Of a DNA stretch of 64,000 bases, positions 13,307 to 29,112 are shown piece by piece. The notes beneath the pieces were generated by a model. The model was not told where the DNA came from and ran no database searches. It saw nothing but the letters and a program-made list of their open reading frames with translations. This stretch comes from Hyphomicrobiales bacterium (GTDB lineage Bacteria; Pseudomonadota; Alphaproteobacteria; Rhizobiales; Rhizobiaceae). The translations under genes and the position numbers were made by a program. The stretch's first letter is position 1. Every line of letters begins with the position of its first letter. The stretch is from positions 1-64,000 of the forward strand of contig UCMS01000006.1 of assembly GCA_900473805.1 (NCBI GenBank), given 5' to 3'.

Positions 13307-15085
13307 TCAGACGAGCTGACGGCCCTTGGCATCGATGGCATTGGCGACTGCTTCATCCGTCGCCTCGTCCGGCAGCAGCATCTCGTTATGCGCCTTGCCC
13401 GACGGGATCATCGGGAAGCAGTTGGCGAGATTGGCCACACGGCAGTCGAAGATCACGGGCTTCTTCACGTCGATCATTTCCTGGATCGCGCCATCGAGAT
13501 CATCGGGCTTTTCGCAGCGAATGCCGACGGCACCATAGGCTTCGGCCAGCTTGACGAAGTCAGGCATGGCTTCCGTGTAGGAGTTCGACAGACGGTTGCC
13601 GTGCAGGAGCTGCTGCCACTGGCGGACCATGCCCATGTACTGGTTGTTCAGGATGAAGATCTTGATCGGCGCTTCATACTGGATGGCGGCCGACATTTCC
13701 TGGATGCACATCTGGATCGAGGCGTCGCCCGCGATGTCAATGACGAGGCTCTCCGGATGCGCGATCTGCACGCCGAGTGCGGCCGGCAACCCATAACCCA
13801 TGGTGCCAAGGCCACCCGAGGTCATCCACCGGTTCGGCTGCTCGAAGCCGTAATACTGAGCGGCCCACATCTGGTGCTGACCGACTTCGGTCGTGATGTA
13901 GGTGTCCCGATCCTTGGTCAGTTCGTAAAGCCGCTGCAGGGCGTATTGCGGCATGATGACATCCTTCGACGGCGTATAGGCGAAGGAGTTGCGGGCGCGC
14001 CACTTGGCGATCGTCGCATTCCATTCAGCCGTCTGCGACGCCTCAGGCTTTTTCGGCAGGGCGCGCCAGGCACGGACCATGTCTTCGAGAACCCGACCAA
14101 CGTCGCCGGTGATCGGCACGTCGACGCGGACATTCTTGTTGATCGACGACGGGTCGATGTCGATGTGGATCTTCTTGGAATTCGGCGAGAAAGCATTCAG
14201 GCGACCGGTGATGCGATCATCGAAGCGCGCGCCGATGCAGACCATGACGTCACAGTCATGCATCGCCATATTGGCTTCGTAAGATCCGTGCATCCCGAGC
14301 ATGCCGAGCCAGTTCTTGCCCGAGGCCGGATAGCAGCCGAGACCCATCAGCGTCGAGGTGATCGGGAAGTCGGTGAGACCAACCAGTTCGCGCAAGAGCT
14401 TGGTAGCCTCCGGACCGGAGTTGATGACGCCACCGCCGGAATAGATGATCGGGCGGCGGGCCGACGCCATCAGCTCGACGGCGGCCTGGATCGCACGGGC
14501 ATCGCCCGTAACCTTCGGCTGGTAGCTCTTCAGCGCCTTGTGGGCATCCGGCGGGGTATAGGTGCCGGTGGCAAACTGGATGTCCTTGGGAATATCGACG
14601 AGAACCGGACCGGGACGGCCCGTCTGGGCAATGCGGAAGGCTTCATGGATGATCGAGGCCAGCTGGTTGACGTCCTTGACCAGCCAGTTGTGCTTGGTGC
14701 AAGGGCGCGTGATGCCGACGGTATCGCATTCCTGGAAGGCGTCCGACCCGATCAACGAGGTCGGAACCTGACCGGAGATGCAGACCAGCGGTACGCTGTC
14801 CATCAGCGCATCCTGCAGCGGCGTCACCGCATTGGTGGCACCGGGGCCGGACGTGACCAGCATGACGCCGACCTTGCCGGTTGACCTTGCGTAACCTTCC
14901 GCTGCGTGACCCGCACCCTGCTCGTGGCGGACCAGGATGTGCTGGATCTCTTCCTGCTGGAAGATCTCGTCATAGATCGGAAGCACGGCCCCACCGGGAT
15001 AGCCGAAGATATGCTCGACACCGTTATCCTTGAGCGCGCGCAGGACGATCTCGGCGCCAGTCATCTGATTGTCTTTACCCGTCAT
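13307..15085 (-). CDS. ilvI: acetolactate synthase large (catalytic) subunit
   Basis: 592 residues, the family's usual size. Thiamine diphosphate enzyme: catalytic Glu55 in [18 protein letters not shown], the FAD-binding middle domain, and the C-terminal TPP motif beginning [12 protein letters not shown] and ending FILNNQ. Uses two pyruvates, or pyruvate plus 2-oxobutyrate. The ATG at 15085 is followed by a second ATG seven codons on, and either could serve. Expression is set by the attenuator upstream, which carries a leader peptide with consecutive Val, Leu and Ile codons. Confidence 0.97.
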
Positions 15086-15140
15086 GCTGTGTTTCCATCT
15101 GCCTTCTTGGTTTTGGGGCTGATAACCCGGTTCAGGGCAT

Positions 15141-15164
15141 AAAAAAAGGCCCCTTTGAGGAGCC
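15141..15164 (-). terminator. ilvI attenuator terminator
   Basis: On the minus strand GGCTCC pairs with GGGGCC around TCAAA and is followed by seven T residues. It lies between the leader peptide stop codon and ilvI, where a Rho-independent attenuator is expected. Confidence 0.85.
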
Positions 15165-15220
15165 TGTCATCTAGCGCATGGGTGGCTATCGCCGGATGGT
15201 TACACCATCCTGCCCATGCG
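15165..15220 (-). promoter_or_regulatory. ilv attenuator alternative pairings
   Basis: GCGCATGGG, inside the last codons of the leader peptide, can pair with CCCATGCGC just before the terminator stem; a smaller hairpin GGATGGT/ACCATCC surrounds the leader stop codon. These are the competing stems expected of a class I amino-acid attenuator. Which stem acts as the antiterminator needs folding analysis. Confidence 0.65.
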
Positions 15221-15256
15221 CCTTCCCACCACGATAAGTGCAACCGAGTTTTTCAT
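15200..15256 (-). CDS. ilvL: ilv leader peptide (attenuation)
   Basis: An 18-residue open frame, MKNSVALIVVGRRMGRMV, directly upstream of the attenuator. Codons 5-10 specify Val-Ala-Leu-Ile-Val-Val, the branched-chain amino acids made by the operon it precedes, so ribosome stalling at these codons when charged tRNA is scarce would favour readthrough. No Shine-Dalgarno is visible; the predicted promoter places the transcript start at or within two bases of the ATG, so the peptide is probably translated from a leaderless mRNA, as known for trpL of Sinorhizobium meliloti. Confidence 0.85.
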   Translation of the reverse strand: MKNSVALIVVGRRMGRMV

Positions 15257-15264
15257 GGGCCGAA

Positions 15265-15293
15265 GTGTTAGCCAGAAAGGCCATCAGCGTCAA
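15265..15293 (-). promoter_or_regulatory. predicted ilvL-ilvI-ilvH promoter
   Basis: TTGACG and TAACAC, 17 bases apart on the minus strand, match -35 and -10 elements. The -10 ends eight bases before the leader ATG, predicting a start of transcription at or next to it. Confidence 0.6.
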
Positions 15294-15424
15294 CGCATCT
15301 TTTGCAAAATTTCGCTCAGGTCGACGACAGTTTGTTGCGCTAGCGCTGCTCGAACATCACCACCGACCTAACGCACTACACGAAATTTTAAGCGCCCCAT
15401 CCTAAACTTGCGTCAGCAGGGAGA

Positions 15425-17518
15425 ATGCGCTTGTCGAAAGATGAATTTCACAAGTCCGGCCAGTCCGGAGATCAAGACCGCCGCGATGGTATGCGGCCCG
15501 GCAACCGGATGCTGGGGCGCGTCGTCGCCTGTAACGGTTCGCGCGCGACGATTGCCGCCGTCGCGGAAGAAGGCGGCACTGACCTGACCGAACTCTGGTC
15601 GGTCGGCCGCCTCATCTCGATCAGTGTCGGCAAAAATCGCGTCGTGGCGCTTGCCTATTCCATGCAGACCGAGGGCAAGGACTGGGGCGAAGGCGCCGAC
15701 AATCAGTTCCTCATCGAAGTCGAACTGCTCGGCGAAGTCTATGTGCAGGAAGACGGCAAGGAGATCTTCTCCACCGGCATTTCGCGCTATCCCTATCTTG
15801 GTGCCATCGCCCACAGGATCAGGGCCGCCGACCTGCTGCGCATCTACGATACGCACCACAGCGATACCGCCGTGATCGGCAAGCTCACCCAGGACGAGAC
15901 GATCGACGCAGCGATCCATATTCCTTCGATGCTGTCGAAACACTTTGCCGTGGTCGGCTCGACGGGTGTGGGCAAATCCACCGCCGTTTCCCTTCTCCTG
16001 CGCAAGGCGATCGAGAGCGACCCGAAGCTGCGCATCCTGATCCTCGACCCGCACAATGAATTCGCCGCCGCCTTTCCCGAGCTGGCCGTCGTGATCGACA
16101 CGGACACGCTTGACCTCCCCTTCTGGCTGATGCGGCTCGACGAGTTCGCCGAGGTGCTGTTCCGTGGGCGCCCTCCGATCCCGGAGGAACTCGACATCCT
16201 GCGCGACCTCATGCCGGAAGCGAAGCGTGCCTTCCGCGGCAATGAAAGCGCCTTGATGCGCCGCATGGCCGACAAGAGTTCGATGACGGCCGACACGCCA
16301 GTCCCCTATCGCATCGCGGACCTGATGGCACTGATCGACGAACGCATCGGCCGCCTCGAAGGACGTGGCGAAAAGCCGTTCCTGCGCTCCCTCAAGATGC
16401 GCATCATGTCGGCGATCAACGATCCGCGCTATCACTTCATGTTCTCCAACAATACGATCAGCGACACGATCATGGAGACGATCGCGCACATCTTCCGCAT
16501 CCCCGGCGACGACCGCCCGATTTCCACGTTCCAGCTTTCGGGGATCCCGTCGGAAGTCGTGAACTCCGTGGCCTCGGTCCTCTGCCGTATGGCCTTTGAA
16601 CTGGCGCTCTGGTCGAACGGTGCGATCCACATGCTGGTGGTCTGCGAAGAAGCCCACCGCTATGTACCGGCCGACCCTAATCTTGGCTTCTTCCCGACAC
16701 GCCAGGCGATCGCCCGCATTGCCAAGGAAGGCCGCAAATACGGCGTCTCGCTCGGCGTCATCACCCAGCGCCCCGGCGAACTCGACCAGACAATCCTGTC
16801 GCAATGCTCGACCCTGTTTGCCATGCGCCTGGCCAACGATCGCGACCAGGAAATCATCCGCTCGGCCATCCCCGACAGTTCGATCTCGACCACCAGCTTC
16901 ATTTCCTCGATCGGCAATGGCGAAGCCATCGCTTTCGGCGAAGCGATCGCGGTGCCGATGCGCATGCGCTTCACCCGCGTGGAAGAACAACGCCTGCCCA
17001 AGGCCAACGGCGTCAACGCGAAGTCGACAGAGGAGACGCCGGACACCGTCGACCTGCGCTCCATCGTCAGCCGCATGCGTGCCATCGCCGGTCCCGACAT
17101 CTCCGCCTTCCAGCAACAGTTCGAAAACAGCTTGGCCCGGGGCGATGTGCCCATGGCACCGGACGGCATCTACGATGACGAGGAAATCGATGACGACGCC
17201 ATGGAGGAGGAGGCACTCAACCGCTTTGCCCCTCCGCCGGTCATGGCCCCAGCGCCGCTGCGCGTTACAGAGCAACCGCCCCTGCGCCAGAGCCTCACAT
17301 CCGCACAGACGCCGACAATCGAGCCGTATCGGCCGGACATGCTACCCCGCTCAGGCGCAGGCGATGTTGTCAGACGGACCGAAGCGGAAAGCGCATTCGA
17401 AAGCGAAGCGACAACAAGTGCCTTTGGCACCTCCTCCCTTCGCCGCGAAGGCGGAGGTTCGTCCCTGCGCGAGAGTATCCTGAAGAAGCCTCTATCGAGC
17501 CTTTACAAGCGCGACTGA
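15425..17518 (+). CDS. HerA-like ATPase
   Basis: 697 residues. An N-terminal HAS barrel (about 28-130) is followed by a FtsK/HerA-type P-loop ATPase: Walker A GSTGVGKST (178-186), Walker B LVVCEEAHRY, then the sensor region GVITQRPGELDQTILSQC. HerA proteins form hexameric rings and normally pump DNA to the nuclease NurA; no nurA is seen near here. The last 180 residues are low-complexity and partly acidic (DDEEIDDDAMEEEAL), then Ser/Arg-rich. Its 3' end overlaps miaA tail to tail by 16 bases. A role in DNA end processing is from the family. Confidence 0.88.
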   Translation: MRLSKDEFHKSGQSGDQDRRDGMRPGNRMLGRVVACNGSRATIAAVAEEGGTDLTELWSVGRLISISVGKNRVVALAYSMQTEGKDWGEGADNQFLIEVELLGEVYVQEDGKEIFSTGISRYPYLGAIAHRIRAADLLRIYDTHHSDTAVIGKLTQDETIDAAIHIPSMLSKHFAVVGSTGVGKSTAVSLLLRKAIESDPKLRILILDPHNEFAAAFPELAVVIDTDTLDLPFWLMRLDEFAEVLFRGRPPIPEELDILRDLMPEAKRAFRGNESALMRRMADKSSMTADTPVPYRIADLMALIDERIGRLEGRGEKPFLRSLKMRIMSAINDPRYHFMFSNNTISDTIMETIAHIFRIPGDDRPISTFQLSGIPSEVVNSVASVLCRMAFELALWSNGAIHMLVVCEEAHRYVPADPNLGFFPTRQAIARIAKEGRKYGVSLGVITQRPGELDQTILSQCSTLFAMRLANDRDQEIIRSAIPDSSISTTSFISSIGNGEAIAFGEAIAVPMRMRFTRVEEQRLPKANGVNAKSTEETPDTVDLRSIVSRMRAIAGPDISAFQQQFENSLARGDVPMAPDGIYDDEEIDDDAMEEEALNRFAPPPVMAPAPLRVTEQPPLRQSLTSAQTPTIEPYRPDMLPRSGAGDVVRRTEAESAFESEATTSAFGTSSLRREGGGSSLRESILKKPLSSLYKRD

Positions 17519-28681: not shown

Positions 28682-28740
28682 GGGTCCGGCAGAACCGGTC
28701 GCGCGATAGTTCGCACACCCTCTTTCCAACGGAGATGGAA

Positions 28741-29112
28741 ACACCTATATCAGCCTTGCCGGGGCTTGCTCCGGCTATGGCAATAAACGGTCGGTGTAAT
28801 AAACCTATTGGACCCGGGGGCGGTACCCGGCGCCTCCACCAAAAACCGGTCGGATCTGATGAGTGTTCAGACCGGCTTTTGATGGGGGCGAAATAGGATC
28901 GACAAGGGCGTAAAGATCGAACTTTTGCTCGGCATGATACCGCCGTTATCGGGTCACAAGTGTAGTTGCAAACGACAACAACGCTAAGGGTTATGCTCTC
29001 GCTGCCTAATGGCGGTGCGGGAAATCCGAACTAAGTCCTTGGGGTTAGCCCCTCAAGGCGGGGTCCGAAGGCACCTGGCAACAGAAGCCTTCACCTAACC
29101 TTCTCCCACCCT
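28741..29112 (+). ncRNA. ssrA: two-piece (circularly permuted) tmRNA
   Basis: The alphaproteobacterial permuted form. The acceptor piece comes first and ends with CGCCTCC-A-CCA (28831-28841), including an encoded CCA and a T-arm-like hairpin before it. A short loop with a hairpin (about 28842-28883) is removed. The coding piece starts at 28884 with GGGGGCGAAATAGGATCGAC; its GGGGGCG pairs with CGCCTCC and gives a G-U third pair, the alanine identity element. The tag frame at 28968-29009 encodes ANDNNAKGYALAA then TAA. Pseudoknot-like stems follow. The outer limits are approximate. Works in trans-translation with SmpB. Confidence 0.95.

Follow-up and report, generated by a model that had tools for sequence, protein, structure and literature searches.

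What does a short reading frame with branched-chain amino acid (BCAA) codons do in front of ilvI on the minus strand of the DNA analysed here, a stretch of 64,000 nucleotides from a Hyphomicrobiales bacterium (the window)? The leader ORF (MKNSVALIVVGRRMGRMV) comprises 18 codons, from an ATG at 15256-15254 to a TAA ending at 15200, and its codons 5-10 read Val-Ala-Leu-Ile-Val-Val in the window sequence. Among these, the codons 7-10 (Leu-Ile-Val-Val, 15238-15227) are taken as the control codons. Downstream on the same strand lie an intrinsic terminator at 15165-15141, identified by folding and covariation (arms 15165-15158 and 15154-15147, T-run 15147-15141), the gene ilvI for the large subunit of acetolactate synthase (15085-13307; NCBIfam NF006581, 1223.4 bits, cut-off 974) and the gene ilvH for the small subunit (13289-12717; NF008864, 222.2 bits, cut-off 119). 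The arrangement described in an earlier note on this DNA, a frame with BCAA codons followed by a terminator and then ilvI on one strand, is thus present in full. The locus shows two features of a trp/ilv-type attenuator, a putative leader frame with codons for amino acids of the pathway and a predicted terminator between the leader and the biosynthesis gene. A consensus scan found one terminator at the locus and an average of 1.1 in shuffled sequences, so that the scan by itself is not evidence; the support beyond chance comes from a match to an Rfam family and from conservation in relatives. The divergent gene adjoining the attenuator (15425-17518, plus strand) encodes a 697-aa protein with the nucleotide-binding loop GSTGVGKST. 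Farther away, the window carries an alphaproteobacterial permuted tmRNA gene at 28719-29095 on the plus strand (RF01849, 306.2 bits; RF04321 at 28779-29009).

Search against Rfam revealed that the minus-strand segment 15254-15131 matches RF02502 (Atu_C8) with 116.8 bits, compared to a gathering score of 50, and an E-value of 3.8e-25. The match is full-length, with its ends at the third base of the ATG and a little beyond the T-run. The element therefore agrees with RF02502 in sequence, structure and extent, but differs in what is said of it: the Rfam description is only "Rhizobiales sRNA Atu_C8", whereas a conserved BCAA leader frame before ilvI is found here. When the region 15050-15450 was compared with the other Rfam families, including T-box and riboswitches, just one unrelated sRNA match below the cut-off appeared (E 0.68). 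RF02502 occurs once in the genome of the window and, at E <= 0.001, in 217 of 397 genomes of the order, with 72 exceeding the cut-off. From the matches listed, most but not all were assembled into a set of 147 leaders after removal of six duplicates (L045-L050); as they were chosen as RF02502 matches, some likeness among them is built in. According to tblastn, the gene downstream is ilvI for 136 of the 147 leaders and a Bcr/CflA-like MFS transporter for 10, and the remaining leader (L061) runs off its contig; this count is used in place of the 119 of 147 obtained for ilvI by motif alone. Three genomes of family f11 (L042, L043 and L044) harbor paired RF02502 copies ~2.7 kb apart, each before an ilvI, in tandem acetolactate synthase genes.

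Alignment of 61 representative leaders (alignment A2) displayed the pattern of a coding frame. At the codons matching Leu-Ile-Val-Val of the window, T occupies the second position in 59, 61, 61 and 59 of the 61 sequences, respectively, and the first and third positions vary, which yields NTN codons and hydrophobic residues. The leader frames had been chosen by three consecutive hydrophobic codons in 80 of the 147 loci and by two in the others. A finder that asks for a frame of 13-24 codons, three consecutive hydrophobic codons and a T-run accepted 80 of 80 relatives and 8 of 800 dinucleotide shuffles, indicating that the hydrophobic-codon pattern is not produced by the selection rule; upon additional demand for a GCGC pair, the numbers are 71 of 80 and 1 of 800. 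Moreover, the control codons are codons that are rare in ilvI. In the ilvI sequences downstream, GTA accounts for 2% of 2793 Val codons and CTT for 7% of 2366 Leu codons, whereas among the control codons their shares are 65% of 269 Val codons and 46% of 209 Leu codons, respectively. The window leader itself contains no GTA (its Val codons are GTT, GTG and GTG), and its Leu codon is CTT. In the relatives, the C-terminal half of the peptide varies along with the RNA stems.

Folding and covariation revealed two hairpins between the control codons and the terminator. Hairpin P1 (15222-15173, minus strand) has its 5' arm at 15222-15213, inside the leader ORF, and its 3' arm at 15182-15173, and joins the segment directly after the control codons to the segment directly before the terminator. 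Nested within P1, hairpin P2 (15210-15194, minus strand) has arms at 15210-15204 and 15200-15194 around the leader stop codon, the middle base of which sits in a hairpin loop in 114 of 147 leaders. Comparison of matched with mismatched duplex energies over the 61 representatives gave covariation z-scores of -15.7 for P1, -18.4 for P2 and -12.0 for the terminator; all three also covary in a set of 28 representatives. In A2, eight of the ten P1 pairs are changed on both sides in some of the 61 relatives, and a pair at the inner end is broken in up to 12 sequences. P2 is missing from the RNAalifold consensus of A2, in which it is misaligned, and was for that reason omitted from the model R1 built from the same 61 representatives. 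Searched over 289 genomes of the class, R1 found matches at E <= 0.001 in five. Four of these belong to the order, among them the genome of the window, and the fifth (G642) does not. The leader frame with its period-3 control codons, the covarying hairpins and the terminator are kept across the order.

The spacing of these elements is also regular. In 110 of 134 placeable loci, the distance from the first base of the last hydrophobic control codon to the GCGC of P1 is 8 nt, and the gap between the end of P1 and the terminator is 0-10 nt, with a mode of 7. With these two distances, a ribosome on the control codons would stand at the foot of P1, and an advancing ribosome would melt P1. The last leader codons had been proposed to pair with the segment before the terminator in competition with other stems; the pairing is recovered, in the form of P1, but competition with the terminator is not borne out, as both coexist in the minimum free energy (MFE) fold of the window sequence. 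A conserved ATTGCC-like stretch often lies directly 3' of the T-run in the 147 leaders inspected by eye. These conserved bases are not read as a continuation of the terminator hairpin, since the polymerase would transcribe them only past the release point.

The upstream region bears on how translation of the leader begins. A predicted sigma-70-type promoter at 15293-15265 on the minus strand consists of TTGACG (15293-15288), a spacer of 17 nt and TAACAC (15270-15265), ending 8 nt before the ATG. The -10 box is weak, and a consensus promoter scan listed nothing at this site because it accepts only second hexamers that end in T, whereas TAACAC ends in C. The geometry reported previously holds nonetheless: the predicted start of transcription is at or adjoining the ATG, with no evident ribosome site. 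Among the 147 leaders, 54 have TTGAC at -35 to -39 of the leader start, for which the chance is ~0.012 per 8 positions. Pairing energies with an assumed anti-SD string reach -4 kcal/mol or lower in 3 of the 54 leaders with TTGAC but in 73 of the 93 without it. This split suggests two start modes within RF02502, one with an ATG-adjacent promoter and no ribosome site and the other with a ribosome site and no promoter at that distance, although related leaders in these counts are not independent events. The window leader is of the promoter type, as are the leaders of its family and of several others; 20 of the 147 leaders have neither feature. Both modes coexist in the genome G369, likely a Devosia, as its pump leader peptide is identical to that of the Devosia locus L167: its ilvI leader (L039) is of the ribosome-site type, whereas its pump leader (L019) has a promoter at -36 and, by eye, no ribosome site.

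The window leader probably starts leaderless, with transcription predicted to begin at the ATG. The other way to read the same region is that transcription begins further upstream and the ATG is reached via a 5' UTR, as might be expected from the 93 relatives without a promoter at that distance, 73 of which have a ribosome site. For the window this is unlikely, since the close ilvI leaders (L001-L007, L009 and L010) keep TTGACG 37 nt before the ATG with anti-SD energies between 0 and -1.5 kcal/mol, and the alignment of the Rfam RF02502 model begins at the third base of the ATG.

A classical attenuator would require an antiterminator that shares bases with the terminator, and mutually exclusive stems of this kind had indeed been claimed. 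No sign of them was found by folding, covariation or an energy test, of which the covariation test cannot register pairs between invariant bases. Folding of 19 leaders in three ribosome states showed that the terminator hairpin is kept in 18 when the last control codon is masked by the ribosome; in the other one (L036), a longer hairpin with the same 3' arm replaces it. Among 67 stall-state transcripts folded without the 3' arm of the terminator, no classical antiterminator appeared, with the wrong arm taken in at least three (L021, L025 and L036). A duplex covariation test over the 61 representatives compared 45 segment pairs with uncorrected p-values, leaving pairs with z above -1 unlisted, and no upstream segment reached p < 0.05 as a partner of one of the terminator arms, the best value being p 0.11 for D:G; the same holds for sets of 72 and 118 representatives. 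Other pairs in the 61 representatives gave p 0.0045 (B:sp, read as P1 extending into the spacer), p 0.0445 (G:H, the 3' arm of the terminator with the stretch after the T-run) and p 0.07 (five:E). The pair ctrl:E, weak in a set of 28 representatives (p 0.057), did not recur in the 61.

Known trp leaders served as a control, comprising 22 leaders above the Rfam cut-off in 398 genomes of the phylum, of which 15 passed the finder. In the energy test, with the last control codon masked by the ribosome and the 3' arm of the terminator left out, upstream pairing of the terminator 5' arm gains a mean of 1.75 kcal/mol in the 147 stalled RF02502 leaders, compared to 4.34 kcal/mol with a shuffled middle. 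By contrast, the gain in the 15 trp leaders is 7.29 kcal/mol compared to 3.27 kcal/mol after shuffling, and a gain of at least 4 kcal/mol is reached by 12 of these 15 but by only 11 of the 147 RF02502 leaders. In RF02502, however, P1 and P2 occupy the real middle, which by itself lowers the gain. How probably the 5' arm is paired does not tell the two groups apart either, the mean being 0.47 in RF02502 and 0.57 in trp leaders and exceeding 0.8 in 7 of 147 and 1 of 15, respectively.

We propose that RF02502 at ilvIH is a transcription attenuator, in which a ribosome on the likely leaderless AUG controls read-through into ilvIH; judged from the sequence, this is a probable assignment. With enough BCAA, the ribosome would enter the 5' arm of P1 and reach the stop codon in P2, melting both hairpins, after which the terminator would end transcription and leave an RNA of ~120 nt, which agrees in length with the Atu_C8 model. 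Upon BCAA shortage, the ribosome would linger at the control codons, allowing P1 and P2 to fold and the polymerase to continue into ilvIH. In the starved state, P1 and P2 would lie against the terminator at the RNA exit of the polymerase. No terminator-excluding pairing was found, so that the step from P1 to read-through is conjectural. The likeliest design, held with somewhat more doubt than confidence, is that P1 may be the antitermination structure and hinder the terminator by adjacency, without common bases. Assuming a footprint of 12 nt, the GCGC of P1 would already be covered once the ribosome sits on the final control codon, which counts against this role of P1 for that one codon. The missing GTA and the weak -10 box of the window leader also speak against the attenuator assignment.

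The main competing reading keeps the attenuator but gives it a classical switch, in which a true antiterminator pairs the 5' arm of the terminator upstream and was overlooked because it consists of invariant bases or a tertiary contact. The rest of the architecture fits such a device, and invariant pairs are invisible to covariation: the arm bases of the trp leaders hardly vary, so that the trp terminator arm alone gives p 0.24 and 0.29, and only a longer segment gives p 0.0035 and 0.010 (13 and 14 sequences). In addition, for 18 leaders from the family of the window, the terminator arm against the middle gives p 0.0505, and the similar pairing probabilities of the arm in RF02502 and trp leaders are compatible with a classical switch. 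However, the energy gain of upstream pairing falls below that of shuffled sequences in RF02502 and exceeds it in trp leaders, and the 61 representatives yielded no significant upstream partner for either arm; a classical switch is thus possible but rather doubtful. The two designs would differ when the leader is not translated, where hindrance of the terminator by P1 would lead to high read-through, the opposite of what the classical design predicts. A more distant proposal sees Atu_C8 chiefly as an sRNA or peptide acting in trans, with a minor cis effect on ilvIH. Rfam does file RF02502 as an sRNA, and the trp attenuator of S. meliloti is described in PMC7298713 as giving both a trans-acting sRNA and a trans-acting peptide. 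Yet RF02502 remains before ilvI in the great majority of relatives (136 of 147), and the C-terminal half of its peptide changes with the RNA stems, which makes a mainly trans-acting product very unlikely.

Beyond ilvI, the same element precedes a transporter gene. The ten leaders with a transporter of 397-426 aa downstream come from ten genomes, half of them in the family of the window, likely Rhizobiaceae, and half in family f6. Two of the transporters scored 181.4 and 210.8 bits against the Bcr/CflA efflux model TIGR00710, below and above its cut-off of 200.9, respectively. The control residues of the pump leaders are mostly Val, as in VLVVV and MVVV. A second RF02502 copy in one genome (L032, G023:C1049) has a leader that resembles those of the pump copies, but the gene behind it is an ilvI paralogue, with 72% identity to the IlvI of the window. 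Among the best 80 of 480 transporter relatives in named genomes, eight carry the element according to R1, and the same eight were recovered by RF02502 among the 11 loci given to that search; they belong to Rhizobium sp. R634, R. lusitanum, R. sullae, Mesorhizobium sp. WSM4311, two Rhizobiales and two Devosia. The one match of R1 outside the order (L272) likewise precedes this transporter, which shares 70% identity over 369 residues with its counterpart in the f6 genome G357.

A further group of leaders, from outside Rhizobiaceae and Devosia, stands before pumps of the same clade. A uniform scan found a leader with a hydrophobic run and a terminator upstream of the transporter at L170, L171, L172 and L175, to which L169 was added by eye; the scan matches at L173 and L232 were discounted, as their T-run lies inside the gene. 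L169-L172 and L175, from Pelagibius, Kiloniellaceae, a Hyphomicrobiales MAG and Minwuia, have Val-rich leaders and a strong terminator, and none matched R1 significantly (best E 0.16). An overlap of P1 with the terminator was first thought to exist in this group, and was dropped when folding gave a mixed picture. In a quick tree of 79 transporters, from which rows shorter than 300 aa were dropped and L172 is absent, the 13 attenuated transporters need 4 label changes compared to a mean of 12.2 after shuffling, with 0 of 500 shuffles as low. Near-copies inflate such clustering, and the unlabelled L173, L183 and L186 fall among the attenuated transporters.

The genes around the pump copies differ among the four loci inspected by eye, which fits a two-part cassette of attenuator and pump moving by itself. 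Before pump genes, the RF02502 copies would likely act as a ready-made sensor, as far as their sequence tells. A bolder reading, which we regard as possible but speculative, is that RF02502 is a portable BCAA attenuator without a base-sharing antiterminator, in which P1 blocks the terminator by adjacency, and that it moved from ilvI to a Bcr/CflA-type pump. A leaderless leader rich in Val codons would there make the pump inducible by ribosome slowing at those codons, and attenuator and pump would have spread as a cassette.

Attenuation of ilvIH or ilvBN by BCAA is already known. That of Caulobacter ilvBN is on record in PMC4117421, which cites Tarleton 1994, and an "ilvIH cis regulatory" element of S. 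meliloti is listed in PMC2573895, which cites Vitreschak 2004. As far as these citing papers describe them, the alphaproteobacterial ilvIH/ilvBN attenuators share with RF02502 a leader with BCAA codons and a terminator before the acetolactate synthase genes. The trpL leader of S. meliloti (rnTrpL, peTrpL), according to PMC7298713 and PMC10117765, has a leaderless leader frame and gives a short attenuated RNA. The present element, also from a rhizobium, would resemble it in both respects by prediction; trpL differs by its Trp codons, a described antiterminator and a demonstrated action in trans. In the paper on the small proteome of S. meliloti, no word of the main text starts with "ilv".

Outside the phylum, a likeness is found in C. 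glutamicum ilvBNC, for which PMC11857589 describes CUU/GUA control codons, shortly followed by an antiterminator hairpin that adjoins the terminator; by analogy, this supports the proposed role of P1. The control codons, the hairpin soon after them and the adjoining terminator recur in RF02502, but three bases are common to both hairpins in C. glutamicum, whereas P1 stops 0-10 nt short of the terminator. The M. tuberculosis ilvB1NC leader, according to PMC13236596, contains a short frame that is translated and has LVVI as control codons, and it gives rise to an abundant ~120-nt transcript ending before ilvB1; it differs from RF02502 in that the gene is preceded by a long leader and the antiterminator proposed there excludes the terminator, again in another phylum. 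The leaderless short polycysteine ORFs of mycobacteria, known to us by title, are likewise leaderless attenuator frames, with cysteine as the amino acid.

Against this background, the identity of RF02502, its two start modes, the undetected overlap with the terminator and the putative transfer onto a pump gene are new. Among the open-access papers listed in searches, where absence is a weak sign, none was seen to describe RF02502 as such an attenuator or to report the two start modes or the copies before pump genes. The "sRNA" RF02502 thereby gains a likely function and a reading frame. As a single RNA family, it allows leaderless and ribosome-site-led versions of the same attenuator to be compared, even within the one genome G369, and it raises the question of whether a terminator-adjacent hairpin without common bases can carry the signal of the ribosome. 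It also offers an example of an amino-acid sensor reused before a drug-pump-like gene; if the cassette reading is true, the pump would be inducible by valine-starving antimetabolites or ribosome-stalling drugs.
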